From contig NZ_BAOL01000011.1 of assembly GCF_000350145.1 (NCBI RefSeq), positions 1-48,062 of the forward strand: a stretch of DNA of 48,062 bases, in the 5' to 3' direction. The notes beneath the pieces were generated by a model. The model searched no databases. It saw only the letters and a program-made list of their open reading frames with translations, and was not told the origin of the DNA. The translations under genes were made by a program, and so were the position numbers. This DNA comes from Ilumatobacter nonamiensis YM16-303 (GTDB lineage: Bacteria > Actinomycetota > Acidimicrobiia > Acidimicrobiales > Ilumatobacteraceae). Shown here piece by piece: positions 1,240-44,255 of the stretch; the stretch's first letter is position 1, and each line of letters begins with the position of its first letter.

Positions 1240-1326
1240 CTACGTCCGGGCAACGGGAGACCCGCCCACGTCTTGGCAGTACTCTACAGGTTCGACCCCC
1301 TCGATGTCCATGATTTCGCCACTCAT
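1240..1326 (-). CDS. Possible 28-residue peptide coupled to the kinase gene
   Basis: An ATG at 1326 overlaps the TGA of the HPr-kinase-like gene (ATGA). It opens a 28-codon frame ending in TAG at 1240-1242, 12 nt before the GTG of the Tat protein gene. The peptide starts MSGEIMDIEGVEPVEYC, is acidic, has one Cys, and ends GGSPVART. The position and stop/start overlap fit a translated gene, and a PqqD-like protein in the same operon could act as a leader-binding domain for such a peptide. Against this, an open frame of this length is not rare by chance at this GC content, and the sequence does not match a family I know. It lacks the lasso leader motif seen at 40965-41081. Confidence 0.35.
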   Translation of the reverse strand: MSGEIMDIEGVEPVEYCQDVGGSPVART

Positions 1327-2249
1327 CGTGACGGGCGACCACTTTCGACGCCCGAAACTGATCGTGCTTCCCGTCCGACGTCCGGTTTGCCGGGCGGTGA
1401 CATTCCAACACGCCCGGCCAGAAGGTCTCTGACCTGGTCGTCGAAACGATCGAGTGGTCCGCGATGCCATTCCAGGGTCTGAGCCCCGCGCACGGCCGAG
1501 GCCATCAGCTCCAGCAACTCCGTCCCGTACCGGTCAGGGTCGAAACACGCTTCGATGAGCCGCACCACACCATGGGAACGGGGAAGCGGTCGAATCTCGC
1601 CGGGAACCGCACCACCGGCGCCGAGAAATATCACCAGTTCAGGTGGTCCAGCTGCCGACACGGTGTTCACGCCCAGCGCCGACGCGGCGCACTGCCTCGT
1701 ATCCGGGAGAGCGAACGGAGCGGGCGGGATCGGCGCCTCCTCGGAAGCGATGCCGAGAAGCGACCAGCTTCCCGAGCGCACTCCGATGGGCTTCAGCGAG
1801 CCGGTGCAGGTCCGATCCGCCGAGACCGCTACGACGTCGTCGGTGAGCAAGCGCCACCCTGCCCGAGCAAGAGCAAGCGTCGTGGTCGACTTTCCGGCAC
1901 CCGACTCTCCGACGACCCAGATCGACCGCCCAGCACGGTCGGCGACCGCCCCCGCGTGCAGGAGGGGGCCTGTCGAGCGCTCGACGACCGCTCGGTTCAC
2001 GTGCCAGAACAACATCGACAGAACCCATCCGGGCAGTCCCGATGCAAGCTCGTCGCCGTCCTGGCTGAGTGTCGCGACGCTCGGGTCATCGAGCGTGACG
2101 TCGAATCGCACCGGGGAGGTGACCGGCGCGCGCGAGTCGACGAACACCTCCGCAAGGTGTCTGCGGAGGCCGGGATCGGACGCATGGATCTCGTACTCCA
2201 GGTCGAGCAATCTGCCGGCGATCGGCTTCGGACGCGACAACGACGTCAC
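1323..2249 (-). CDS. HPr-kinase-like P-loop protein of the first cassette
   Basis: This 308-residue protein belongs to the HPr kinase/phosphorylase-like group found in peptide-modifying clusters. The P-loop GESGAGKST is at about 114-122, preceded by the usual LLHAGAVA segment. The acidic motif LLTDDVVAV follows, where HPr kinases bind metal and phosphate. The open frame extends to 2510, but the GTG at 2249 overlaps the nucleotidyltransferase stop by 4 nt (GTGA) and leaves a family-like N-terminus, so I chose it. Family members phosphorylate Ser or Thr, and relatives in lasso clusters phosphorylate the peptide. The substrate here is unknown. No lasso cyclase or B2 protease accompanies this copy. 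A paralogue sits in the lasso cluster at 37933-38871. Confidence 0.82.
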   Translation of the reverse strand: MTSLSRPKPIAGRLLDLEYEIHASDPGLRRHLAEVFVDSRAPVTSPVRFDVTLDDPSVATLSQDGDELASGLPGWVLSMLFWHVNRAVVERSTGPLLHAGAVADRAGRSIWVVGESGAGKSTTTLALARAGWRLLTDDVVAVSADRTCTGSLKPIGVRSGSWSLLGIASEEAPIPPAPFALPDTRQCAASALGVNTVSAAGPPELVIFLGAGGAVPGEIRPLPRSHGVVRLIEACFDPDRYGTELLELMASAVRGAQTLEWHRGPLDRFDDQVRDLLAGRVGMSPPGKPDVGREARSVSGVESGRPSR

Positions 2250-3370
2250 GGCTTCGCCGATCGCCGCATTCCGACCTCTCGCCTCACCGTGTGGAGAAAG
2301 TGCCGGACGCGGTCGCGACGGCTCGAATGACGTGCCGACACGTATCTCTTGGTCGGCAGCGACAGGTCGCGCAGGTACTCGGTCCGTTCTCGCCATCCAG
2401 CGAGCGTGGTCACGCTGAGCGCTGCCCGTACCGCCCATGATGAGTCGGGGTCGCGGTGAGCGGCGATCAGGCCCGCGTCGACGATGCTCGGTGCAACTTG
2501 TGTGCTCCACGCTGGATCGAGTGTCTCGGGCCAGACCGTGGCGCGCAACACGGTGTCGACAGCGCTGTCGAGCAGCGCTTCCACCCCCCAGCCGGCTGCT
2601 CGTTCACGAACCTCGCCGATGTCGATCGTCGGGAGCAGCCGGACGAGGTCTCCGACCGTGGCCAATCGGGCAGGCGGCGGAGCGAGTTCGGCATGCAGGC
2701 AGGCGTGCAGGAAACGGTGTTCCCGGTCGAGTGCATCGATCTCGGTGGACCCGACGAGAAACGGACTCCGCACCGCCCAGAGTTCGTCGACCGGGATGCG
2801 ATGGCCGACCGGGCCTTCGGCGATCGTGCGGTGGACATCGAACTCGATGTCGCCGACCCACGTGATGCTCTTCCCGTACCGACGGTCGAAGCCCGCCCGC
2901 GGCTCGGGATAACGACGCCGAAAACCGTCAGCCCGGAGGATGTCGAACACTTTGGGGAGATCGCTCGACCGGACGAGCACGTCGATGTCACCGAACTCGC
3001 GCAATTCCGGTCGCAGATGATCGAGGTGGGCAGACGCCGGCCCCTTCAGACTGCGAAGTTCGATCCCAGCGGTCGCCAATTCGTCGTGGAGCCAGATCAA
3101 CCGCGATTCCAGGTGGACGCAACGCGCCATGGCGCCACGCCAACGATCCACCAATGGCGCCACCCGCGACTCGTCGACCACGAGCACACCGTCACGCGCC
3201 GCCCACGCGAGCGCGGGGATCACCCGTCCTCTCGCCGCCGTGTCGACCAGCGCGAGCCACTGCGAATCCGTCCACGCCGATGTGTCGACGGTCGTCGTCG
3301 GGAGGCCGAGTGCATCGGCAGCGATCAGACGTCCGAGCAGAACCCGGTGCGCGAGCACCTCAGTACTCAC
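2246..3370 (-). CDS. Nucleotidyltransferase-like protein (PF14907-type) of the first cassette
   Basis: This 374-residue protein has the nucleotidyltransferase-fold signature of the 'uncharacterised nucleotidyltransferase' family. LKG is at 108-110, followed by DHLRPELREFGDIDVLV ending near 133, where the Asp pair should bind metal. A partly helical C-terminal half follows. Relatives occur beside HPr-kinase-like genes in lasso clusters, where they are proposed to act on a phosphorylated peptide. The gene overlaps the upstream PqqD-like gene by 11 nt and the downstream kinase gene by 4 nt, so the three are almost certainly co-translated. The exact reaction and acceptor cannot be read from the sequence. 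The paralogue at 43065-44255 has the same core motif. Confidence 0.8.
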   Translation of the reverse strand: MSTEVLAHRVLLGRLIAADALGLPTTTVDTSAWTDSQWLALVDTAARGRVIPALAWAARDGVLVVDESRVAPLVDRWRGAMARCVHLESRLIWLHDELATAGIELRSLKGPASAHLDHLRPELREFGDIDVLVRSSDLPKVFDILRADGFRRRYPEPRAGFDRRYGKSITWVGDIEFDVHRTIAEGPVGHRIPVDELWAVRSPFLVGSTEIDALDREHRFLHACLHAELAPPPARLATVGDLVRLLPTIDIGEVRERAAGWGVEALLDSAVDTVLRATVWPETLDPAWSTQVAPSIVDAGLIAAHRDPDSSWAVRAALSVTTLAGWRERTEYLRDLSLPTKRYVSARHSSRRDRVRHFLHTVRREVGMRRSAKP

Positions 3371-3611
3371 GAACCAGCAGACCCTCGGCGACCAACTGAT
3401 CGATCACCCCGCGAGCATCCTCCACCGCGTCGGGCTCGTCGGTGAACATTTTTGCCACGTCGGCGAGGACGTCCGACTCGGGACGTCCGCTTCCGATCAG
3501 CCGATAGACGATGCCCGCCGCACCGAGCAGCTCGACCTCGCGAGCCGTCGAGCCGTCGAACAACACGATCCAGTCGTCGAGATCTCGCGACGGGGTCACG
3601 GGGCGGACCAT
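3360..3611 (-). CDS. PqqD-like peptide-recognition protein, minus arm
   Basis: This 83-residue protein matches the PqqD/RRE fold in size and pattern. An N-terminal strand pair (WIVLFDGSTAREVELLG) is followed by an aliphatic helix (AAGIVYRLI) and two helices ending LVAEGLLVREY. Such proteins bind leader peptides and present them to modifying enzymes. It is the first gene of the minus-strand arm and overlaps the nucleotidyltransferase gene. It is divergent from a second PqqD-like gene, with only 86 bp between them. No PQQ synthesis genes and no lasso cyclase are nearby, so its partner peptide is unknown. The family call is fairly safe; the role is inferred from the fold. Confidence 0.75.
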   Translation of the reverse strand: MVRPVTPSRDLDDWIVLFDGSTAREVELLGAAGIVYRLIGSGRPESDVLADVAKMFTDEPDAVEDARGVIDQLVAEGLLVREY

Positions 3612-3697
3612 GTGACGCTCCCCGCCTTATGCTCGTGCACGAATCGGGCACGCATTCCGATCGCCCAACCACGTGCTCCGACCATCACCGATCCATC
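3612..3697. promoter_or_regulatory. Divergent promoter region between two PqqD-like genes
   Basis: These 86 bp separate the starts of two PqqD-like genes on opposite strands and must hold promoters for both arms of the cassette. I could not assign convincing -35/-10 boxes, so the call rests on gene orientation. Confidence 0.5.
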
Positions 3698-3991
3698 ATG
3701 ACATCTCGCCGACGATCCGACTCGTTTCCACGGCTCCGGGACGATCTCGGCGCCGTTGCGGTCGACGGCGACATCGTCGTCTACGACGCTACGGCCGAGA
3801 CCGCACACGTACTCTCCGGTGGGGCGGTCGCAGTGTGGTTGGCCCTGGAGAACGAAACCGGACCGCGCGATGTCACCGCTCGGGTGGCGGAGATCGTCGG
3901 CGAGGATCCCCGCGTCATCGCCGACGAAGTGGATGACGCGGTCCGATCGTTCCGCGAGCGCGGCTTCCTCGTGGCGGACAGCGGGGCATGA
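3698..3991 (+). CDS. PqqD-like peptide-recognition protein, plus arm
   Basis: This is a 97-residue PqqD-like protein. Strands DLGAVAVDGDIVVYDATAE and TAHVLSGGAVAVWLAL are followed by helices containing the acidic segment VIADEVDDAVRSF and the closing RERGFLVAD, which is the usual layout of PqqD/RRE proteins. The ATG at 3698 gives a family-length product; upstream in-frame starts would add unrelated residues. Its TGA overlaps an ATG at 3988 (ATGA) that opens the interrupted frame leading into the 4075 gene. With the protein at 3360-3611 it forms a divergent pair, so each arm may have its own recognition domain. Confidence 0.75.
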   Translation: MTSRRRSDSFPRLRDDLGAVAVDGDIVVYDATAETAHVLSGGAVAVWLALENETGPRDVTARVAEIVGEDPRVIADEVDDAVRSFRERGFLVADSGA

Positions 3992-4053
3992 GCCGGAAGC
4001 CCGACGGCGCCGGAGAGGCCGTTCGGTTTCTCGACGAGCCACCGAATCCTTGA
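3988..4053 (+). other. Short coupled frame in line with the 4075 gene
   Basis: An ATG at 3988 overlaps the TGA of the PqqD-like gene. The frame runs 21 codons (MSRKPDGAGEAVRFLDEPPN...) to a TGA at 4051-4053. It is in the same reading frame as the gene starting at GTG 4075, so the two could once have been one gene interrupted by a nonsense codon. It could instead be a tiny leader peptide, or chance. The overlap with the upstream gene favours 3988 as an original start. Confidence 0.35.
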
Positions 4054-4074
4054 GGCGGCGCTCCCGCCAGCCCC

Positions 4075-4851
4075 GTGTGGGCCGGTTCGTACGTCTACAG
4101 CGATGGCAGGTGGCGGATCGGACTGTGCGCCGACGACCAAGAGCTGATCGACGCCATCGTCCGCTCGGTTCCCGGCTCGGTGACGGAAACCGAGGACCCG
4201 CCTCCGGGCTACTCGTTGATCGCCCATCCCGGCCTCCTGCCGCCGGCCGGCGGGCCAGGATCGCCGCGTGAGCTCGCCTCGCTCCGCCGCGGTTCCACGA
4301 CGCTCCTGCGAAGCCGCGACCCGGTGCGGCTCGCACGGTCGCTGGCGCTCCACCTTCGCTCGCACCCCGCAGCCACCGACCAGCGGGTTCGGCTTCGGTC
4401 GGCCGCCGTCGTGCGCGACGATTCCGTCGTCCTCGTCCCCGCAGAGGTGCTGTGGCAGGCGGGCCTCGAGTCGCGCCTCGCCCGTGCGGGCATCGCCCCC
4501 GTGGACTCACCCGTCATCGAGATCGACGCCGTCGAGCGCGGCAAAGGATTCGCGTGGATCCCCCGCGCGTGGCCAGGCGGAGGAACGCCACCGGGAGCGG
4601 TCGACGTCGACCAACAGCGCCTACCGATTCGCCGTTGGCTTCTCGACCCCGTCGGCTTTGACGCTCACGACATCGGGAGCGCCAGCGGTTTGGTCGCCGC
4701 AGCGTGTACCCGGATCGATCCCGGTTCGGGCGCTCATCCACACGATGCCCTCGAAGCGGTCGCTCACCTGCGAACGGTCGTGATGCCGCTCCCGCTGCAA
4801 CTCACGGCGAGCGACACGATGGCCGTGATCTCTCAGGCGCTCGAGACCTGA
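4075..4851 (+). CDS. Unknown protein resembling an HPr-kinase fold without a P-loop
   Basis: This 258-residue protein is not clearly recognisable. The stretch SAAVVRDDSVVLVPAEVLWQ, followed by RLARAGIAPVDSPVIEID, tracks the order of an HPr-kinase-like core: an 'H/S-x-A-x-V-x-R-D...VLVPG' strand, a helix, then 'AG...SDE...ID'. The Gly-x4-Gly-Lys-Ser/Thr loop is absent and replaced by AEVLWQAGLE. If the alignment is right, this is a catalytically dead relative of the kinase at 1323-2249 and may be a scaffold or regulator. The GTG at 4075 is the first in-frame start after the TGA at 4051-4053. An AGGCGG lies 17 nt upstream, which is too far for a strong ribosome site. It sits downstream of the plus-arm PqqD-like gene, probably in the same transcript. 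Confidence 0.65.
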   Translation: MWAGSYVYSDGRWRIGLCADDQELIDAIVRSVPGSVTETEDPPPGYSLIAHPGLLPPAGGPGSPRELASLRRGSTTLLRSRDPVRLARSLALHLRSHPAATDQRVRLRSAAVVRDDSVVLVPAEVLWQAGLESRLARAGIAPVDSPVIEIDAVERGKGFAWIPRAWPGGGTPPGAVDVDQQRLPIRRWLLDPVGFDAHDIGSASGLVAAACTRIDPGSGAHPHDALEAVAHLRTVVMPLPLQLTASDTMAVISQALET

Positions 4852-4924
4852 CGGCGTCCGGAAGGTCGACTCGACCGAACCGAACCGACGTCACCTCCGG
4901 CCGTCGTTCGCGTACCATTTGATC

Positions 4925-6451
4925 ATGGCGCCGGGCGGACGATCAGCACGAGGCTTTCTCATCCGGTCATCCCGATGGACCCCATCTCGACGACACGGTA
5001 CAGCCGTCGCGATGCTCGGGCTCACGGTCGCGGCCTGCGCCGGCAGCGACCCCGACATTGACAGCGCTCGCGCGCCGGAAGTGCCGACATCAGACCAAAC
5101 TGCACCCGTCGACACCGCAGAGACCGTCGACTCGGAAGGGACCACCGAGGCGGACGACGGCCAAACGACGGAGACCACTTCACTGTGGGATAGGTACCAG
5201 AATGGTTCGACGCCCGCCGATCCGCCGCCGTCGCCGATCAGTTCCGCGGCGTCGTGTGAGCCGGGTGGATCGCCGGCACCGTCGAGCGACTTCGAGTCGG
5301 TGACGCTCGAGGATCTCGGCGAGACCGACGGCGTCAGAGTCCACGCGGCGGAGTATCCGCTGCCCGATTACGAGGGCAACCCGTGGTCACAGTGGGGAGA
5401 GGGCGTCGCACTCCCCGATGGTCGCTACGTCTCCGCCGTCGGAGACCACCTGGGGCAGGACGGCACCACGTGGTTCTACGAATACGACCCCGCCACCGAT
5501 GAACTCACGCGCACGGTGGAGGTGTCGGAGTTCCTGGATCACGAAGACGGGGACTGGGGGTTTGGCAAGATCCACGCCCCGATGGTCCTGGACGCGGACT
5601 GCTCGATCGTGACCGCGACGTACTGGGGATCCCGGCGCGGCATCGAAGACTCGTCGTACGAGGGCGACCACCTCGTCCGTTACGACCCCATCACGCGGGA
5701 AGTCCACGATCTCGGGATCCCGGTCGAAGGGTTCGGTATCCCGTCGCTCTCGATCAGCCCCGACCGTCGATACATCTACGGTGAGGCCGTCGACCCCTCG
5801 ACCGACGCCGCGACCGAAGCCGACACGGGCGTGTTCTTCATCGCAGATGCCGCAACGGGCGAGGTGACACACCTGGACGACCGTGACGAGCACGTCGGTT
5901 TCCGCGACGTGCTCGTGACCTCCGACGGAGAAGCCCTGTACGCGATGAACGACGGATCTCTCGGCGCGGTCCGACCCGACGGCGCCGAACGCGTCATCGA
6001 CGCGGTACTACCGGGCGGGGGCTGGCTGCGCAGCGCCACGCCGACCCGCGGTCAGGGCGCTGTCTACGGCGTCACTCGCGATCCAGATGCCCTGTTCGAA
6101 TATTCGACCTCGGGGGAGTCGATCGACATGGGTGAACTCGAGGGATACGTCGCATCCATCGCGCTCTCACCCGACGGCGAAACGGTCTTCTACGTTCCGG
6201 GAGCCCACGGCAACGGCCCGGAACTCGGCGGGACCCCGCTGATCGCCGTCGACACGGCGTCGGGAGAACGCACGGTCCTCGCCCGTCTGAACGACGTCAT
6301 CGAACCCGCACTCGGGGTCGTGGCGGGTGGATCGTTCAGCGTGGTCGCCGCTCCGAGCGGCGACCGCATCTACGTCGGCCTCAATGGCGGACGGTCAGGA
6401 TCCGACGAGGAGTTCGGCACGGTCGTACTCGCGGCGATCGACCTGTCGTGA
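4925..6451 (+). CDS. Secreted lipoprotein, predicted beta-propeller
   Basis: The protein (about 508 residues from ATG 4925; a TTG lies two codons earlier) starts with basic residues and a hydrophobic stretch ending LTVAAC, a lipobox, so it should be anchored to the outer face of the membrane. An acidic, low-complexity linker (about 40-120) follows. The rest contains repeated propeller-type segments such as SISPDRRYIYGEA, VTSDGEALYAMN and ALSPDGETVFYVPG. These resemble YVTN/NHL or WD40-like blades. The role is unknown; such proteins often bind ligands or glycans. Its stop overlaps the ATG of the next gene (ATGA), so both lipoproteins are probably made together. A location beside a glycan locus suggests a surface role. 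Confidence 0.75.
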   Translation: MAPGGRSARGFLIRSSRWTPSRRHGTAVAMLGLTVAACAGSDPDIDSARAPEVPTSDQTAPVDTAETVDSEGTTEADDGQTTETTSLWDRYQNGSTPADPPPSPISSAASCEPGGSPAPSSDFESVTLEDLGETDGVRVHAAEYPLPDYEGNPWSQWGEGVALPDGRYVSAVGDHLGQDGTTWFYEYDPATDELTRTVEVSEFLDHEDGDWGFGKIHAPMVLDADCSIVTATYWGSRRGIEDSSYEGDHLVRYDPITREVHDLGIPVEGFGIPSLSISPDRRYIYGEAVDPSTDAATEADTGVFFIADAATGEVTHLDDRDEHVGFRDVLVTSDGEALYAMNDGSLGAVRPDGAERVIDAVLPGGGWLRSATPTRGQGAVYGVTRDPDALFEYSTSGESIDMGELEGYVASIALSPDGETVFYVPGAHGNGPELGGTPLIAVDTASGERTVLARLNDVIEPALGVVAGGSFSVVAAPSGDRIYVGLNGGRSGSDEEFGTVVLAAIDLS

Positions 6452-8220
6452 TGAGGTCGACCCGCCGACCCCGCGCGACACAGTTGTGGGTCGCGTCGAT
6501 CTCGGCTGCGACGTTGACGATCACCGCGTGCGGCGGCAGCGAATCGGGCCAGTCGTCGGTCGACGCAGGGCAATCCGACGCGAATCGCCCGGACGACCCC
6601 ACGTTGAGTGGCTCGACGCCATCGAAGGTGCTCGTACCACAGTCGACGTCACCGCGCCCGGGCACACCTTCCCTTCCGTGGAGCAACGAACCCGACTCTG
6701 CGTCCGCCGCCCTCGGCAACACCAGTGTTTGCTGGTCCACTCCGCCGATGAACGGGACCGACGAGATCTCCTTCGTCAATGCCACCGAGGACTATGGGCT
6801 CGTCGAACCGCTCACCGGGATGTACGGACATGCCATCGCGGCAGGTGATCCCAATGGGGACGGCTGGACCGACCTCTTCGTCGGCACCTTCGCCGACCGA
6901 CCCGTCGAGGACTATCAGGTTCGCGGTGCCGAGGGCCCCTCCCCCGACAAGCTCCTCCTCGGTGGCCCCGACGGCTTCCGCGTCGATGAGTCATTCCCTG
7001 GCCAACTCGCTCGATCGAGCGGCGCGACCTTCGCCGACCTCGACCGCGACGGCGACCTCGACCTGATCGTCTCACGCAACCCCCGCGGCGACAGCGAGGT
7101 CGGAAGCCGACCCACCACCATCTTTGAGCGCGATCGCGACGGTTGGTCCATCTCGACCGAATTGGCCCACGATGTGGGCGGACGCTCCATTGCGGCCGTC
7201 GACTTCGACCGCGATGGGCTTCCCGACCTCGCGATTGCCGGCGACCGCTTCGGCGCTGGACCGACGCGTTTCTACCGCAACCTCGGAGAGATGAAGTTCG
7301 AGGACACCACGGCGACGTGGGGCATTCCGAGCGACGTCGAAACTCTCGCGTTGTCGACGATCGATCTCGACGGCGATGGCTGGCTCGACGTCGTGTTCAG
7401 CGGCGATCCCCGGGTGCTGATGGGCCGGGGACCAGGAGAGTTCGAGATCGTCGACGCGCCGGCCCTCGAGTGGGAGATCTACGGCGAGGAGGACGACCCC
7501 GCCGGGATCGCGGTCGGCGACCTCGACAACGATGGTCGGCCGGACCTCGTGGTCGGCCAGCACTTCAACTCGACCCTCGAGTTCGGCGAGCGGGTTCCGG
7601 TCCGGATTTTCCTCAACCGCTCGGAGCCCGGCGAACTCGAGCTGATCGACGTGACCGACGAAGCGGGCTCGCTTCCGCTTCCCACCAAGTCGCCGCATGT
7701 CACGATCGTGGACCTCGACAATGACGGCAACCAGGACATCGCCACCTCGGCAGCCTCGCCCGAGGCAACACCGGTCGTGTTGCGCAACGTCGGCTTCGAC
7801 GACGGCATCCCCGTCTTCGAAGCGTCATCCGAGGTCAGCGACCGCTACTGGGTCACCGGGGTCACGGCGGACTTCGACGGAGACGGACGAGTTGACGTAG
7901 TCAACGTCGCGTGGGAGCCGACCAGCCCGACCGTTGCCTCTCGAAGCACCGGACCGTCCGGGGCGTCGCTTGAGCTGGACGTGTCAGCGATCGACGGTCT
8001 CGAAGTCGGTGCTGCGATCTCCGTCGGTGCACCAGGTTCCTCGAGTCCGATCGGCCGGGCTTGGGTGGCGAGCACGAGCGGATACGCAGCGGGGCCTGGC
8101 CGGGTGATTCATCTCGGTCTCGGGGGGTTCCGTGGCGACATCGATGTCACCGTCGAACACGTCGATGGAACGACCACCACGTTCTCGGCGGAAGAGGGCT
8201 CGGTTCGGGCCTGCCCGTAG
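6451..8220 (+). CDS. FG-GAP/VCBS-repeat lipoprotein with UnbV/ASPIC-like C-terminus
   Basis: The protein (589 residues from ATG 6451; a GTG lies one codon earlier) has a lipoprotein signal ending LTITAC. The mature part has seven calcium-binding repeats of the Dx(D/N)xDGxxD type: DPNGDGWTD, DLDRDGDLD, DFDRDGLPD, DLDGDGWLD, DLDNDGRPD, DLDNDGNQD and DFDGDGRVD. Seven such repeats fit a complete integrin-alpha-like propeller. The C-terminal part (HLGLGGFRGDIDVTVEHVDG) resembles the ASPIC/UnbV domain that often closes CRTAC1-like proteins. Expected location is the cell surface; ligand unknown. It is co-translated with the preceding propeller lipoprotein. Confidence 0.85.
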   Translation: MRSTRRPRATQLWVASISAATLTITACGGSESGQSSVDAGQSDANRPDDPTLSGSTPSKVLVPQSTSPRPGTPSLPWSNEPDSASAALGNTSVCWSTPPMNGTDEISFVNATEDYGLVEPLTGMYGHAIAAGDPNGDGWTDLFVGTFADRPVEDYQVRGAEGPSPDKLLLGGPDGFRVDESFPGQLARSSGATFADLDRDGDLDLIVSRNPRGDSEVGSRPTTIFERDRDGWSISTELAHDVGGRSIAAVDFDRDGLPDLAIAGDRFGAGPTRFYRNLGEMKFEDTTATWGIPSDVETLALSTIDLDGDGWLDVVFSGDPRVLMGRGPGEFEIVDAPALEWEIYGEEDDPAGIAVGDLDNDGRPDLVVGQHFNSTLEFGERVPVRIFLNRSEPGELELIDVTDEAGSLPLPTKSPHVTIVDLDNDGNQDIATSAASPEATPVVLRNVGFDDGIPVFEASSEVSDRYWVTGVTADFDGDGRVDVVNVAWEPTSPTVASRSTGPSGASLELDVSAIDGLEVGAAISVGAPGSSSPIGRAWVASTSGYAAGPGRVIHLGLGGFRGDIDVTVEHVDGTTTTFSAEEGSVRACP

Positions 8221-37932: not shown

Positions 37933-38871
37933 TCAGGTGCCGATGAGCCCGGCAATTGCCGGTGCGATCTCGGAACTGAACGGCGGACCCCATGGCACGG
38001 TCACGTTGTGGACGGCGACCCCATTCACGATCGATCCGAGCGTCTCGAAATCACGTCCGAGGACCTGTGGATCACGCCACCCGTACACCCGCGGAAAGCG
38101 GAGCATGGCGAAGACCGCGTCCGCCGGAGCGATGGTGGAAACCGAGATCGTCGTCGAGTCATGGTCAGGCGATGGAATGACGATCGCGCCGAGTCGAAAA
38201 CTCCTCAGCGGCGCCGTCCGCGGCGCTACCGCGAGTCGGTCGTCGGCAGTTCGCCGACTGGACGCACCGCTCATGGCATCGGCGAGCCCAAACGCTTTCG
38301 TACGCAATCGCAGCTCGGGAGCACCCCCGGTGCACATCACGGGATTGCCGGACTCGACCACGAGAACGTCGTCCGTCACGAGTTCGGCACCGCTTGCACA
38401 CATCAATGCTGCGATCGTGGACTTTCCACGGCCCGACTGGCCGACGAACGCGATCGCCGTGTCGCCAATTGACACGGCGCTCGCATGGAGGACTGTCAGG
38501 CCACGGAGAGCGAGCACAAACGAGCTGACGGTTCCGGCCAACAACACGGGGAGCAGTTCATGGCGCCCGGAGCGGTCAGGACGGACAACGATCTGGGCCA
38601 GATCGCCAGAGATCTCACACTGGCCGCAGTTCCGGAATCGAAGGATGTAACCCCCGTCGGTACGGGTACCGGTATACCAGCGCGCGCCGGACGGATCATC
38701 GAGCCTGACAAGTTCATCTCCAGGGGGAAGATCCTGGGTGCTGCTCATATCCGAACCAAGACAGATGTCGACATCTGTCCGTCCGGCGGCAATCGTGGGA
38801 AGGGCGAGCTCCACCTCCGAACGAACGTGCAGGCCGCATTGAAAATAGTGGAAACGGGAGGGTGTAGTCAT
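37933..38871 (-). CDS. HPr-kinase-like lasso peptide kinase
   Basis: This 312-residue P-loop protein has LTVLHASAVSIGDTAIAFV followed by GQSGRGKST (about 143-151) and the acidic motif ELVTDDVLVVE. That is the plan of HPr kinases recruited to lasso clusters, for example PadeK of the paeninodin cluster, which phosphorylates the C-terminal Ser of the precursor. The predicted core here ends in Ser, which fits. Its ATG overlaps the B2 protease stop (ATGA), giving the operon B1-B2-kinase. The frame extends to 39153 within B2 and is rejected there. The role is well supported by context; substrate specificity is inferred. Confidence 0.86.
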   Translation of the reverse strand: MTTPSRFHYFQCGLHVRSEVELALPTIAAGRTDVDICLGSDMSSTQDLPPGDELVRLDDPSGARWYTGTRTDGGYILRFRNCGQCEISGDLAQIVVRPDRSGRHELLPVLLAGTVSSFVLALRGLTVLHASAVSIGDTAIAFVGQSGRGKSTIAALMCASGAELVTDDVLVVESGNPVMCTGGAPELRLRTKAFGLADAMSGASSRRTADDRLAVAPRTAPLRSFRLGAIVIPSPDHDSTTISVSTIAPADAVFAMLRFPRVYGWRDPQVLGRDFETLGSIVNGVAVHNVTVPWGPPFSSEIAPAIAGLIGT

Positions 38872-39371
38872 CGTTCTGCGCCGACCGGAGGCGGGCCGAA
38901 GGTTCTGTACGAAGTGATGTCTTCGAGCGGCCGTCCGTCGATCTCGAGCCAGGCATGAGCGGTGAACTGCTGCGTCTCCCCACCGATCACGCCGAGCCGG
39001 AGTGCGGGATGGAAATGCCGCAGCAGATGCCCCGCGATGAGGGAACGACGCAAGCACGGACCCCTGCTGAACGGCCAGGCGTCGGTGACCCGGCGCGTGC
39101 AGAGCATCTGCCGTTTGGTCGTCGCAGGGAGATCGTCGAGCGGCAGCGGACATGCGGTCGAATCGACAGGTGACAGGTCGAGGTGAACACCGAGGAGCGC
39201 TGCCAAGCGCCGAAGTTTCATCGTACGGATGAGCACCTCAACGACCACGATCATGCCAAAGACATGGACCGTCGTGAGTAGGTCGCGTGGGGGTTGCCCC
39301 ACGGCTCGGCGTGCCTTGCGCGCCAAATCGGTCAGGCCATTGTGCGGCGGGTGCCGACGATTTGCAGTCAC
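38868..39371 (-). CDS. Lasso peptide leader protease (B2, transglutaminase-like)
   Basis: The 167-residue protein has the B2 layout. An N-terminal helical part (LTTVHVFGMIVVVEVLIRTM) is followed by the cysteine protease fold with Cys106 in GPCLRRSLIAG, His139 in FTAHAWLEIDG and Asp151 in RPLEDITSY. That gives the expected Cys-His-Asp triad. It removes the leader peptide with help from the B1 protein encoded immediately upstream. The GTG start overlaps the B1 stop (GTGA). Its sequence is slightly more variable after strand 1 than in well-studied actinobacterial B2 proteins, but the triad is clear. Confidence 0.9.
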   Translation of the reverse strand: MTANRRHPPHNGLTDLARKARRAVGQPPRDLLTTVHVFGMIVVVEVLIRTMKLRRLAALLGVHLDLSPVDSTACPLPLDDLPATTKRQMLCTRRVTDAWPFSRGPCLRRSLIAGHLLRHFHPALRLGVIGGETQQFTAHAWLEIDGRPLEDITSYRTFGPPPVGAER

Positions 39372-39631
39372 TCATCCTCGATGAGGTTGCGTTGCCGAAG
39401 ACTGTCGAGGAATCGACCCACATCCGTCGCCGCGAGTTCTGGAGCGATCGCGTACCGGTCCGTGAGAGCAGTCACGAGCTCCGTCTCGGTCGCGCCCTGG
39501 CTGAGCAGCTCCCAGAGCGCTCGACCGCTTCCGTTCAGCTTGAGATACACGGAGCCATCGAGATCGAGGATGACCACCTCATCTCCCGCTGCGTGCCACG
39601 TCAGCTCATCTTTCCTGAGTTGCATACCCAC
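39368..39631 (-). CDS. Lasso leader-binding protein (B1, PqqD-like RRE)
   Basis: The 87-residue protein has the PqqD/RRE order of strands and helices: DEVVILDLDGSVYLKLNGSG, LWELLSQGATETELV and the final helix FLDSLRQRNLIEDE. In split lasso systems this protein binds the leader of the precursor and delivers it to B2 and the cyclase. The frame opens at GTG 39631 with an ATG two codons later (39625), either of which may be used. It heads the B1-B2-kinase operon and is divergent from the cyclase gene, with 57 bp between the two starts. Confidence 0.87.
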   Translation of the reverse strand: MGMQLRKDELTWHAAGDEVVILDLDGSVYLKLNGSGRALWELLSQGATETELVTALTDRYAIAPELAATDVGRFLDSLRQRNLIEDE

Positions 39632-39688: not shown

Positions 39689-40867
39689 ATGTTCGTTCGT
39701 GCGCCCGAGAACCCGTACGTCATGACTGAGTTCGACACTGTAGTCGGAGTTCTGCTCGGTCTCGAGGAATCCGAGCGGAATGAGTCGGGTGGCATTGACC
39801 CACGGGCCACGCTCGAGCGAGTCGTGTTCGAACTCATGGTGTCGTCCCGACCGCCGTATGTCGTGGCCTTCTCGGGAGGGCGCGATTCATCGCTGATTCT
39901 CGCGATCGCAACGGCGATCGCGCGGCGAGAGGGACTTGACCTGCCGACACCGGTCACCAAGGTCTTTCCACACGTGACCGAATCGAACGAGGAGAAGTGG
40001 CAGACGGCATTCCTCAAACACCTCCGGCTCCCGGATTGGGAGCGACTGGAGCTCGCCGACGAGCTCGATATCGTGGGTCCTCTCGCTACTCAGCGGTTGC
40101 TCGAGTTCGGGGTACTGTTTCCGGCGACTATTGTGGGCGATGTACCGATGCTGGAGGTTGCCCGGGGCGGCCTGATCTTGGACGGTGAGGGCGGAGACGA
40201 CATTCTTGGCTCGGAAGCACACCGCATCGGCTCGTTGGAGCGCCTGCGACGCGGATCGCTGCATGGACGGGTGCGCAAGCTGCCGAGTGTCGCGGAACGC
40301 CTCCTACCCAATCGGATACGAGCACCGCGACAAGTTGCCGGGATGAAGCCAACGCCCTGGCTCACTCCTGCTGCAGCGGCGGCGCGGAAGCAGGCGCTGG
40401 TAGATGCCGAAAAGCTGCGTCCGCTGTCGTTTGCGCGGAGCGTTCGACAGGCACGGCGCAGGCGTTCCGTCGTGATCGGCTCAGCCAATCGCGCGTATTT
40501 CGCCGATCGTTTCGATGTGCACCTTGCGAGCCCGATCCTGCACCCGGACTTCGTGGAATCGATGGCCCGATTGGGAGGGATTCTGGGCCCCGGCCAGCGC
40601 AGCGACGTTCTCCGGATGATTGCTCCCGACCTCCTTCCCGACGAAGTGGTCAGCCGCCGAAGCAAAGCAATCTTCAATCGGGCCATCATGGGTCAGCACA
40701 GCAGAGCGTTCGCTGAGAATTGGGACGGTTCGGGAGTCGATCGCTCCCTTGTGGACGTCGACGGACTCCGAAACGAACTCTTGTCCGAACGACCCAACGC
40801 AGCGGTGGCGGCTCTCGCACAGTCCGCGTGGCTTGGATCTCAGCCGGCGAACGGGGTCAAAGAATAA
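39689..40867 (+). CDS. Lasso cyclase (asparagine-synthase-like, no glutaminase domain)
   Basis: The 392-residue protein has the ATP-pyrophosphatase core of asparagine synthetases: VVAFSGGRDSSLILAIA (PP-loop near residues 58-68), then LILDGEGGDDILGSE near 165-176, and further conserved SVVIGSANRAYFADRF. Lasso cyclases use this site to adenylate the ring Asp and join it to Gly1. Typical actinobacterial cyclases are about 600 residues with an N-terminal glutaminase-like domain; here only about 55 residues precede the PP-loop, so that domain is missing. No upstream in-frame remnant was seen. It lies 97 bp before the precursor gene and divergent from the B1-B2-kinase operon. Confidence 0.88.
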   Translation: MFVRAPENPYVMTEFDTVVGVLLGLEESERNESGGIDPRATLERVVFELMVSSRPPYVVAFSGGRDSSLILAIATAIARREGLDLPTPVTKVFPHVTESNEEKWQTAFLKHLRLPDWERLELADELDIVGPLATQRLLEFGVLFPATIVGDVPMLEVARGGLILDGEGGDDILGSEAHRIGSLERLRRGSLHGRVRKLPSVAERLLPNRIRAPRQVAGMKPTPWLTPAAAAARKQALVDAEKLRPLSFARSVRQARRRRSVVIGSANRAYFADRFDVHLASPILHPDFVESMARLGGILGPGQRSDVLRMIAPDLLPDEVVSRRSKAIFNRAIMGQHSRAFAENWDGSGVDRSLVDVDGLRNELLSERPNAAVAALAQSAWLGSQPANGVKE

Positions 40868-40964: not shown

Positions 40965-41081
40965 GTGGAAAAGTATGAGACACCGGAAATCATCGAGCTC
41001 GGTTCGGTCGCAGACGTGACCCAGGGCGAGGGCCTCGAAGGCAACGCAGACAACGTGTGGATCTTCAGCTGGGGTAGCTGA
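40965..41081 (+). CDS. Lasso peptide precursor, 38 residues
   Basis: A 38-codon gene too short for usual annotation. The leader (residues 1-20) carries the actinobacterial lasso motif YxxPxIxxxGxxxxxTxG as YETPEIIELGSVADVTQG, with the conserved Thr at position -2 before cleavage. The core should be GEGLEGNADNVWIFSWGS (18 residues). Gly1 can be joined to Asp9, the only acidic residue at positions 7-9, giving a nine-residue ring, a loop and a Trp/Phe-rich tail that can lock the thread. There is no Cys, so this is a class II lasso peptide. The last residue is Ser, the expected target of the linked HPr-kinase-like enzyme. It starts with GTG behind a strong ribosome site and is followed by a perfect hairpin. 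Confidence 0.93.
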   Translation: MEKYETPEIIELGSVADVTQGEGLEGNADNVWIFSWGS

Positions 41082-41105
41082 ACTTCACTGAAGGTTCTGC
41101 AATTC

Positions 41106-41147
41106 ACAAGGCATCTGGTCTGCGCACATGCGGGCCAGATGCCTTGT
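41106..41147 (+). terminator. Perfect 13-bp hairpin after the lasso precursor
   Basis: ACAAGGCATCTGG (41106-41118) pairs without mismatch with its reverse complement at 41135-41147 around a 16-nt loop. It sits 24 nt past the precursor stop and ahead of the convergent exporter gene. It is the most stable hairpin in the lasso cluster. It could be a bidirectional terminator and could also protect the short precursor mRNA. Confidence 0.7.
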
Positions 41148-41201
41148 CTGCGTTTTCGCCCAGGGTGGTTACTCACGAGCGAGCCGCTCGAGAATCCCGT
41201 C

Positions 41202-42998
41202 TCAGCTCCTGAGTCCGTATCGGTCTGCTTGGAGGTTGAAGAGATCGTGATACAGACCACCCGACCTCATCAGGTCGACGTGACTCCCCATCTCGACCAC
41301 GTCACCGTGGTCCATGACGACGACCGCATCGGCCGACCGGACTGTCGCGAAGCGATGTGAGACGAACAGTACGATCCGATCGAAACAGAGTTCGTGGAGG
41401 AGATCGAACAGATCCGCCTCGGCTTGCGGGTCCAGTGATGCCGAAGGTTCGTCAAGAATCACGATCGGAGCGTCACGGAAGAGCGCCCGAGCGATCGCGA
41501 GACGCTGCCATTGGCCGATCGACGCGTCGGTCCCTCCGGCGAAGACCTTGCCGAGACGCGTGTCGATTCCCGCAGAATTCGAGCGGATGAGGTCGTCGAC
41601 GCCCGCCTCGATCGCGGCCCGCTCGATTCCTTCCTCGTCGTCGATTCGATTGATATCCCCGAGCGCAATCGAACTTCGGATCGTCAGCATGAACTTTGCG
41701 AAGTCCTGGAAAACCGGAGCCATTTGGGCGCGTACCAACGCCGGGTCACAGACCGCGATGTCAACTCCGTCCCAGCAGACTTTTCCCCGAGTAGGCGGGA
41801 GGAGATTTCCGATCACCTTGGACAATGTTGTCTTGCCTGACCCGTTTGCCCCCACGATCGCCATCACCTGACCGCGCCGGAGTTCGAAGCTCACCGAACG
41901 AACGGCATCCTCTTGAGCGCCTGGGTACCGATATCCAAGGCCCTCAACGGTGAGCGTCGTCGGTGGAGTCGGAGGGATCGCCGTCGGTCGACGCTTTCGG
42001 ATGTTCGGGAGTTCCGCTCGAAAGCTCTCGAAGTCTCGGAGGAATGTGATTCCCTGGTGAACGTTCGTGAAGGCCGTCCCCGTCGAGCGGAGACGGCTGC
42101 TGAGCTGCTGGAGCCCGACGATCGCGACCGCGGCGTCACCGATCGAGATGACGTTTCGCCCAGCCAAGATCAATGCGAACGAGAGAGTTGCGATCATCGC
42201 CGCCGTATTCACGACGGCACCAAACGTCGTTAGCACCAACCGCTTTCGTACAAGATCACGCAGACGACCGAGTCGAATGTCCCACAGGTCGGAGTGCCAC
42301 CGGCGGAATGTACCGGCGATGTCATACGCACGGACTTCCTTTGCCATCTCCCGCGACGTGAGAACCACCTCGAGGTACACGCGCTCTCGCTGCAACTCGG
42401 TGAGATCCCGCTCCATCTGGTACTGCGCCCGGTTGTTCCTGACATTGACGAACGCGATGGGGAAGTAGCTGATGACTGCGATCGGGACGAGAACTGGTGC
42501 CACCGTGAAGAGCACCCCGATCACTCCGACCGCAACAACCAACGTCGACATCATGGTGACGAGGCCGAAGACCACCGCCGACGACTGGCCTCCGGCCGCG
42601 GCGCGGGCCCGCTCGAGCCGATCGTGAAAGTCGGAGCCTTCGTAGAACTCGAGTTCGACTTCCGTCGCAACATCAAGAACATCGTCCATGGTCCGCCGCT
42701 GTACCTTCTCACCGAGCGGGATGCGCAGTTCCGTCGTTGCCGCTTGGCTCAGCGCACTGGCCATCAGCAAACCGCCGAGGAGGATCAGGTACGGAACGAG
42801 TTCACCCGTCGCTACTCCCGTCGTACCTGCGAGAAGGTCGAGGAGCGAACGGCCGACGAGGAGTTGGCCTGCTACGGCGAGTGAGGTGATCACGGTCGCC
42901 GCGAGGATGAGTAGGAGCGTTCCCCGTCCTGCTGCCCAGACCAACGTGAACGCCAGCCTCACCGTGCCGATCGAGTTGGTCGTGTTGTCCGCTGCCAT
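41202..42998 (-). CDS. ABC exporter of the lasso cluster (D protein)
   Basis: This 598-residue half-exporter has a membrane domain in about the first 310 residues (GTLLLILAATVITSLAVAGQ, SSAVVFGLVTMMSTLVVAV, AMIATLSFALILAG). The ATPase part has P-loop GANGSGKTT near 380 and Walker B IVILDEPSASLD near 511. The signature is ASIGQWQRLAIARAL rather than LSGGQ; a 'GxWQR' variant is familiar in peptide-exporting ABC proteins. It should export the mature lasso peptide and give immunity. ATG 42998 is preferred over TTG 43007. It follows the nucleotidyltransferase gene on the same strand, 66 bp apart, and converges on the precursor gene. Confidence 0.86.
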   Translation of the reverse strand: MAADNTTNSIGTVRLAFTLVWAAGRGTLLLILAATVITSLAVAGQLLVGRSLLDLLAGTTGVATGELVPYLILLGGLLMASALSQAATTELRIPLGEKVQRRTMDDVLDVATEVELEFYEGSDFHDRLERARAAAGGQSSAVVFGLVTMMSTLVVAVGVIGVLFTVAPVLVPIAVISYFPIAFVNVRNNRAQYQMERDLTELQRERVYLEVVLTSREMAKEVRAYDIAGTFRRWHSDLWDIRLGRLRDLVRKRLVLTTFGAVVNTAAMIATLSFALILAGRNVISIGDAAVAIVGLQQLSSRLRSTGTAFTNVHQGITFLRDFESFRAELPNIRKRRPTAIPPTPPTTLTVEGLGYRYPGAQEDAVRSVSFELRRGQVMAIVGANGSGKTTLSKVIGNLLPPTRGKVCWDGVDIAVCDPALVRAQMAPVFQDFAKFMLTIRSSIALGDINRIDDEEGIERAAIEAGVDDLIRSNSAGIDTRLGKVFAGGTDASIGQWQRLAIARALFRDAPIVILDEPSASLDPQAEADLFDLLHELCFDRIVLFVSHRFATVRSADAVVVMDHGDVVEMGSHVDLMRSGGLYHDLFNLQADRYGLRS

Positions 42999-43064
42999 GT
43001 CCGCCAAAGGCTACGCCGTTCGGTGCTCTCGGGCCTCAGGAGAGGCCGTACCCGGGTTTCGTGA

Positions 43065-44255
43065 TCATTGCTCTTCCGACGAGTTGCCCGCCTCGTTGTG
43101 GGTAGCGCTCTCGCCGCCCCACCGTCGGCGGGTGACTCGCCACAACCGGTCCCACCGAGAAGAGTAGCCACCCCGGGCGAGAAACTCATCCGATGGTGAT
43201 GCCCAGTTCCGGAGCACCCGTAGCCGGTCGCGCGGAGGCATGCCGAGCGTCTTGGCAAGCTTCAGGTCGAACTTGTCGAGATCCGGGCGGTCATATGCCC
43301 GCCGCAACGCGAAGTCCAGCGGATGCCTACCCCGCACGCCGACCACGACCCGGTCGGCGCCGCACAACACCGCAGCGCGCTCCGTGATACGTCGCACCAC
43401 GTCCGCGACATTTGTCGCCTGCAAGAGCTCGGTGGCCGTACGTCGTTCCAAATTGTCGGCCGCTCGAGCGATGAGCAGGAGGTCAAGCAGCGATGACATG
43501 ATTCGATGATTGGGATACGAGATAGCCAAGTGACTCGCCGCATGCGCCATCCGTCCGCCGCGATCGAACGCGCGGAACTCGTGACCGCCGATCGTGAAGC
43601 TCTCCCACTTGTCCCAATAGTCCTCTGGGATCGGCCGGCCAACCGTGTGGAGTCGTCGGTGGAGATCGATCGAGTAGTGGTCGTTAAGCCGCCAAGTCTC
43701 ACCTTTATCCATCAACCGGATATCGAGATCTGCTCCGACGAAACCCGAATCAGCGAGAATTTGACTGGCTTGACGGAAACCGCTGTCGCCTCGGACCAGG
43801 AGATCGACGTCGGCGGATTGGCGGAGCCCAGGTTGGACGTGATCGAGATGGCCGGTCGCCGTCCCCTTCAGCACACGGAACTCGACGCCGGCGTCGTTGA
43901 AGCGCGCCCCTACGTCGACGAGCATCGATTCGAGCTGGAGGCCGTGCACGACCTGGCGCATAGAGGCGCTCTCCAGATTGCGCTGGAGACGATCCGTCTC
44001 CGCGACAATCCGTCCGGACTCGACAGCGGCGCGGAGCTGCGGCACGAGGCGGTGATAGTTGAGACGAGCGAACAACACATCCTCAGCGTCGGGAGCGACG
44101 ACGACGGGTGCGCACTCGTACTCCATATCGAGGAGGACGCGGACGAGGTCCACCCCGCGTTCGTGGAGCGCCAACTCAGGGTCGAAGAAACGCAGGGCAT
44201 CGCCAGGCGTCATCGAGTCGGTCGCGAGCGCTGTGGATGATCGGCGTCGTCGCAT
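43065..44255 (-). CDS. Nucleotidyltransferase-like tailoring enzyme of the lasso cluster
   Basis: The 396-residue protein belongs to the same family as the gene at 2246-3370. It has VLKGTATGHLDHV (from residue 128) followed by RQSADVDLLVRGD (about 145-157), where the Asp pair should bind metal. In kinase-containing lasso clusters this gene type is linked to further modification of the phosphorylated peptide. Here it is co-directional with the exporter. Start ATG 44255 is uncertain; ATG 44213 (MTPGDALRF) would remove a basic, non-conserved tail. Together with the kinase it suggests a lasso peptide modified at its C-terminal Ser. Confidence 0.8.
   Translation of the reverse strand: MRRRRSSTALATDSMTPGDALRFFDPELALHERGVDLVRVLLDMEYECAPVVVAPDAEDVLFARLNYHRLVPQLRAAVESGRIVAETDRLQRNLESASMRQVVHGLQLESMLVDVGARFNDAGVEFRVLKGTATGHLDHVQPGLRQSADVDLLVRGDSGFRQASQILADSGFVGADLDIRLMDKGETWRLNDHYSIDLHRRLHTVGRPIPEDYWDKWESFTIGGHEFRAFDRGGRMAHAASHLAISYPNHRIMSSLLDLLLIARAADNLERRTATELLQATNVADVVRRITERAAVLCGADRVVVGVRGRHPLDFALRRAYDRPDLDKFDLKLAKTLGMPPRDRLRVLRNWASPSDEFLARGGYSSRWDRLWRVTRRRWGGESATHNEAGNSSEEQ

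Follow-up and report, generated by a model that had tools for sequence, protein, structure and literature searches.

The DNA analysed here, a 48,062-nt stretch of the Ilumatobacter nonamiensis YM16-303 genome (hereafter the window), carries a 38-codon open reading frame (gene A, 40965-41081, plus strand) that starts with GTG and is translated as a leader, VEKYETPEIIELGSVADVTQ, followed by a core, GEGLEGNADNVWIFSWGS. A ribosome-binding-site-like stretch, AAAGGAGCC, is present a few bases 5' of the start. The partners expected of a lasso peptide precursor, B1, B2, C and D, all flank A, together with an HprK-like kinase (K) and an NTP_transf_5 protein (N), neither of which was mentioned in the initial annotation of this region. 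B1, B2 and K are on the minus strand, C and then A follow on the plus strand, 97 bases apart, and D and N are again on the minus strand:

37933..38871, minus strand: K, HprK-like precursor kinase, 312 aa; motif H129 G144 G147 G149 K150 S151 D167 D168, PEPCK/HprK fold in the AF2 model
38868..39371, minus strand: B2, leader peptidase; NF033537 48.2 bits (over 33), PF13471, Cys106 and His139 invariant in 59 homologues
39368..39631, minus strand: B1, PqqD-like leader-recognition protein (RRE), 87 aa; PF05402 68.2 bits, NF033530 sub-threshold
39689..40867, plus strand: C, predicted single-domain lasso cyclase, 392 aa; FSGGRDSS 61-68, GGD 168-170, Lys326, PF00733 40.3 bits (over 21)
40965..41081, plus strand: A, lasso precursor; NF033521 29.7 bits, core pattern shared with six relatives
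41106..41147, plus strand: terminator-like hairpin between the convergent genes A and D; 19-pair stem, folding z-score -4.74 over 41080-41170
41202..43007, minus strand: D, MsbA-like ABC exporter, 601 aa; PF00005 89.4 bits, best NCBIfam match TIGR02203 MsbA, below cut-off
43065..44255, minus strand: N, NTP_transf_5 protein, 396 aa, the annotated class of PsmN; PF14907 83.6 bits (over 31.2)

The surroundings of the cluster form a polysaccharide region, with glycosyltransferases, sugar epimerases and a DegT aminotransferase. None of nine other genomes from the genus contains cyclase C, and the cluster is therefore an accessory trait. Elsewhere in the window, a second HprK-like kinase (1323-2396), an NTP_transf_5 protein (2246-3370) and a PqqD-like protein (3360-3611) are encoded side by side on the minus strand (1323-3611), accompanied by a Thr-rich, apparently secreted protein (424-1227); the 1323-3611 set is possibly a second RiPP-like cassette, without B2 or C.

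Precursor, predicted ring and tailoring enzymes

The leader of A is recognised by the NCBIfam model NF033521 (lasso_leader_L3; E 4e-7, cut-off 19), while the match to Pfam Subterisin is sub-threshold. A strict leader pattern followed by Thr-x-[GA] occurs once in the six frames of the window and in none of 200 windows simulated with a first-order Markov model. The initial annotation had proposed a lasso-leader precursor gene here, and the reading frame, the model score and the full flanking cluster confirm it; its predicted cleavage after Thr-Gln, with Thr at -2 and Gly at core position 1, is likewise supported by the leader model and the complete cluster, which includes both B1 and the transglutaminase-like peptidase B2 expected of the lasso class. 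It is thus well supported that A encodes a true lasso precursor and that its cluster is intact, and as a peptide it would be a new member: the NCBIfam and Pfam models for named lasso peptides (benenodin, albusnodin, subterisin, cyanobacterial) all score below cut-off on A, so that its core is filed under none of them.

The core begins with Gly, one of the residues (Gly, Ala, Cys or Ser) that can supply the ring amine of a lasso peptide. Of the Asp or Glu that could take part in the ring from positions 7-9, Asp9 is the only one present, since Glu2 and Glu5 lie too near. The core shares the pattern [GA][EQ]G..G..D...F.[WY]G...S/T with six diverged precursors, from Nocardioides, Tessaracoccus, Pengzhenrongella, Isoptericola and two further actinobacteria, all of which end in Ser or Thr, and the C proteins associated with these seven precursors are spread over several branches of the C tree. 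Within the seven cores, Asp9 never changes whereas positions 2 and 5 do, and this contrast is the best evidence for the Gly1-Asp9 ring that had been predicted from A alone. The six relatives also keep Phe14 and an aromatic residue one or two residues later (Trp or Tyr 16). The common pattern therefore suggests that the predicted ring, an aromatic plug and the C-terminal hydroxyl residue are conserved; Phe14 and Trp16 are likely the plugs, an assignment that we infer from their fit with the bulky residues that lock a lasso.

The ATG of K and the stop of B2 overlap by 4 bases. K falls below the cut-off of Pfam Hpr_kinase_C (26 vs 33.3). Its AF2 model (pLDDT 96.1) shows a PEPCK/HprK fold, matching PEPCK with a VIA Z of 18 and HprK in Foldseek. 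H129, G144, G147, G149, K150, D167 and D168 are invariant in an alignment with 33 homologues, and the spacing of the motif is exactly that of BsfK, H148-G163-G166-G168-K169-S170-D186-D187 (PMC10368454). In motif spacing, fold and the Ser-ending core that accompanies it, K thus conforms to the HprK-type lasso kinases of the PadeK/ThcoK class. The His-Lys-Asp-Asp residues are essential by mutation in paeninodin-type lasso kinases and, as PadeK-type kinases phosphorylate the C-terminal Ser, Ser18 is the expected site (PMC9266682). Phosphorylation of Ser18 by K is accordingly probable; an optional phosphate had already been envisaged, and both the kinase motif, which is that of enzymes acting on C-terminal Ser, and the conserved Ser/Thr end speak in its favour. 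K could nonetheless target another Ser, since BsfK phosphorylates Ser3 (PMC10368454) and the core also contains Ser15. In the case of pseudomycoidin, the nucleotidyltransferase PsmN leads to the addition of a hexose on phospho-Ser (PMC9266682); N, of the PF14907 class, may therefore do likewise, as a candidate PsmN-like modifier of the phospho-Ser.

The single-domain cyclase and the proposed pathway

The initial annotation overlooked that C has no N-terminal domain. This protein has the Asn-synthetase-like macrolactam synthetase domain of the lasso class, in which SGGRDS, GGD and Lys326 show little or no variation across 67 homologues, and lacks the Ntn-like N-terminal domain that is usual, if not class-defining, for lasso cyclases. 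Only 61 residues precede SGGxDS, compared to 198 in McjC (sequence taken from an E. coli plasmid) and mostly about 220-290 in actinobacterial full-length cyclases, C being about 120-230 residues shorter than the full-length enzymes. With hhalign, columns 41-362 of the C family align with columns 237-583 of a profile of six full-length lasso cyclases including McjC (E 7e-21). Because a sequence search of the PDB with C found no true relative, folds were compared instead: the AF2 model of C, made from a 67-sequence alignment (pLDDT 94.6), is compact, and its residues 3-385 align with human ASNS from about residue 140 onward and with TsnB9 from residue 146 onward (Z 17-19). Since only the synthetase domain of these proteins is matched, the whole Ntn-type domain is missing from C.

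A separately encoded N-terminal domain next to C was considered, but would find no room in the 57-base gap between B1 and C or among the identified cluster genes. McjC does not have the same architecture, given its 198 residues before SGGxDS. To our knowledge, the lasso cyclases studied biochemically all carry the N-terminal domain. C is predicted to be a lasso cyclase active without it, and the cluster is a new variant of the lasso system owing to this single-domain enzyme.

The locus thus very probably holds all the genes needed to make a class II lasso peptide (no cysteine) of the kinase-bearing, paeninodin-like type. The genes, the motifs, the conserved core pattern and the loss of the N-terminal domain from C are read from sequence or structure prediction, and every reaction, the threading and the phosphate are proposed from characterised relatives. 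In this pathway, B1 would bind the leader (YxxPxI...G...T), K would phosphorylate the C-terminal Ser18 of the precursor, where N may add a further group, and B2 would cut after Thr(-2)-Gln(-1). C would then adenylate Asp9 with ATP, so that the Gly1 amine could close a macrolactam of 9 residues (28 atoms) around the tail, folded beforehand, and D would export the product. The calculated monoisotopic mass of the cyclised 18-mer is 1918.85 ([M+2H]2+ 960.43), rising to 1998.81 if it carries one phosphate, compared to 1936.86 for the linear peptide.

Peptides can also be amidated (TsrC, ScdTA) or converted to nitriles (PesC) by AsnB-like enzymes of RiPP clusters (PMC13060819), and in lacking the N-terminal domain C does truly differ from known lasso cyclases. 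It is conceivable, if unlikely, that C is not a lasso cyclase and uses ATP to make another amide (amidation or nitrile formation at an acid, or an unthreaded branched lactam), yielding a modified but unknotted peptide. However, amidating AsnB enzymes need ammonia, normally supplied by a glutaminase domain that C does not have, whereas the profile of C matches lasso cyclases, the N-terminal Gly/Ala and the Asp8/9 spacing are conserved in the cores, and removal of the leader by B1 and B2 would free the amine needed for a lasso. Another reading, with a very small chance of being correct, is that of a cyclase-independent phosphopeptide pathway resembling the LPP pathways, with K, B1, N and D as main actors and C incidental. 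The LPP gene set (RRE, HprK-like kinase, NTP transferase, MsbA-like exporter) does occur in glycosyltransferase-rich loci, as found around A (PMC13381572). In a sample of 296 Actinomycetota genomes, B2 was over cut-off in 39, and among the 37 B2 loci fetched, 13 had a full-length cyclase or part of one while no cyclase was found within the stretch examined in 24. Against this, C lies directly 5' of A on the same strand, an adjacency that recurs in relatives, and LPP pathways use an SpI peptidase where the present cluster has a B2 with intact Cys and His. Finally, the shortness of C could be taken for that of a truncated remnant in a decaying cluster from which no peptide is made, a highly improbable reading, as the reading frames are intact, the active-site residues invariant and the fold of C compact at high confidence, and as the short form and its start region are common to a conserved family of 69 Actinomycetota loci, which largely refutes decay.

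Relatives of the cyclase and their cores

These 69 loci, found by a scan of genome contigs and mostly located beside lasso-type precursors, include members of Acidimicrobiia, Thermoleophilia, Amycolatopsis, Prauserella, Nocardioides, Blastococcus and Isoptericola. The other genes of the cluster are frequent close to the short C, with K at 66, B1 at 63, B2 and D each at 59 and N at 52 of about 73 loci. C belongs to an apparently undescribed family of single-domain lasso cyclases. A search of the open-access literature, a scope that makes this weak evidence, found neither N-terminally truncated lasso cyclases nor lasso peptides closed by a Lys side chain.

Two of the sampled genomes (G000 and G555) contain short cyclases. 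Several arrangements differ from that around A. Some loci (L132, L133, L135, L137-L142, L144, L145, L147, L148 and others) have B1, B2 and K, often with N and D, and no cyclase of either kind within the stretch examined; three of them (L132, L133 and L135) encode a leader-like precursor whose core is rich in Pro and Gly (HGRGHPPFG.SGPPGCNPSDGCVAPGLGSQ). In Prauserella and Amycolatopsis (L027, L030, L032, L038, L045, L048 and L059), clusters come in pairs, in which single-domain C genes and precursors (reading ANLFG..PDNLTW... and GQSQGSRLDADFAAG...) each occur twice and a single set of B1, B2, K and D apparently serves both. The L010 locus (2394-7732) combines both kinds of cyclase: a single-domain C, which has its own precursor, and a full-length lasso cyclase of 624 aa, accompanied by B2.

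Matches to the leader model beside short C genes gave 78 cores, or 57 after removal of near-duplicates, and 54 of the 78 precursors end in Ser. Most cores fall into two classes, one with Gly or Ala at position 1 and Asp at position 8 or 9, to which the Lys-free core of A belongs, and one with Lys and Asp six, sometimes seven, residues apart. Among position-specific signals in the 57 non-redundant cores, that of Asp at position 9 ranks first (20 vs 5.2 expected, z 6.8), and Gly and Ala at position 1 are likewise over-represented. When all residue pairs were screened at spacings of up to 12, Lys followed by Asp at +6 gave the top signal, being present in 20 of the 57 cores against 2.4 expected from shuffles, which ignore shared ancestry (z 12.5); the +7 spacing is raised as well (7 vs 2.3) and the remaining Lys-Asp spacings are at background. 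The Lys can occupy any core position from 1 to 18, so it is the Lys-Asp spacing that is kept and not the distance from the leader. On the cyclase tree, the classes change seven times, Lys-Asp cores being also found outside their main clade, and K splits into two sequence types that largely track the two classes.

By atom counting, Gly1-Asp8/9 rings have 25 or 28 atoms, while Lys-Asp rings at +6 or +7 would have 26 or 29, the same as Gly1-Glu8/9 lassos, which suggests closure through the Lys side chain. Although this falls somewhat short of being probable, the single-domain family may therefore have switched its closing amine, some members joining Gly/Ala1 to Asp8/9 and others linking a Lys side chain with the Asp at +6 or +7. 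The products of the latter would be side-chain lassos or branched macrolactams without parallel in the literature found. This prediction concerns relatives of C and A and not the A peptide itself. Metanodin was considered as a precedent for a Lys ring and rejected, its residue 1 being Asn (PMC12670498).

Cores with a Lys-Asp pair at +6 or +7, located at varying distances from the leader, were noted at L063, L036, L055, L040, L064, L031, L035, L018, L066, L061, L010 and other loci, the L063 cluster being from Modestobacter and that of L064 from Acidimicrobiaceae. Most of these cores have no acid at the usual ring position. Very short acidic cores of neither class (ETTVAAVDNEDGGNS, EIVVAGDETAGGS) were observed at L056, L082, L020 and L046, beside a distinct clade of single-domain C. 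Tandem, very short leader-type precursors, with cores such as DDGSVFDADPTN, are encoded near a single-domain C at L057 (4370-5088, minus strand).

Significance and comparison with known systems

While the core of A would be one more lasso peptide, cyclase C matters more. A natural minimal cyclase of 390 residues would show that the N-terminal domain is dispensable for ring closure. No structure of a lasso cyclase has been solved (PMC13352647), and a single-domain C would be a smaller target for structure determination and engineering. Moreover, if a single enzyme family serves both core classes, one could ask directly how a cyclase picks its amine.

The closest known systems are the paeninodin/pseudomycoidin-type clusters (A, K, C, B1, B2 and D, with N in pseudomycoidin), which share with the present one split B1 and B2 genes, an HprK-like kinase with His-Lys-Asp-Asp, an NTP_transf_5-type protein, an exporter and a class II core with a C-terminal Ser (PMC9266682). 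In contrast to these, the cluster described here is actinobacterial, its cyclase has no N-terminal domain, and B1-B2-K diverge from C-A. McjC, of microcin J25, and other full-length lasso cyclases resemble C in their Asn-synthetase-type domain, SGGxDS and conserved Lys, but McjC has 513 aa, with 198 before SGGxDS, compared to 392 and 61 for C. Beta-lactam synthetase, carbapenam synthetase, ASNS and TsnB9 likewise share the synthetase-domain fold (Z 14-19 over 244-319 residues) and differ by an N-terminal domain absent from the C model, the alignments starting near their residues 102-146. Lastly, the LPP phosphopeptide RiPPs of Bacillota also combine an RRE, an HprK-like kinase, an NTP transferase and an MsbA-like exporter inside polysaccharide loci, but rely on an SpI peptidase instead of B2, have no cyclase and are phosphorylated on Ser3 (PMC13381572).
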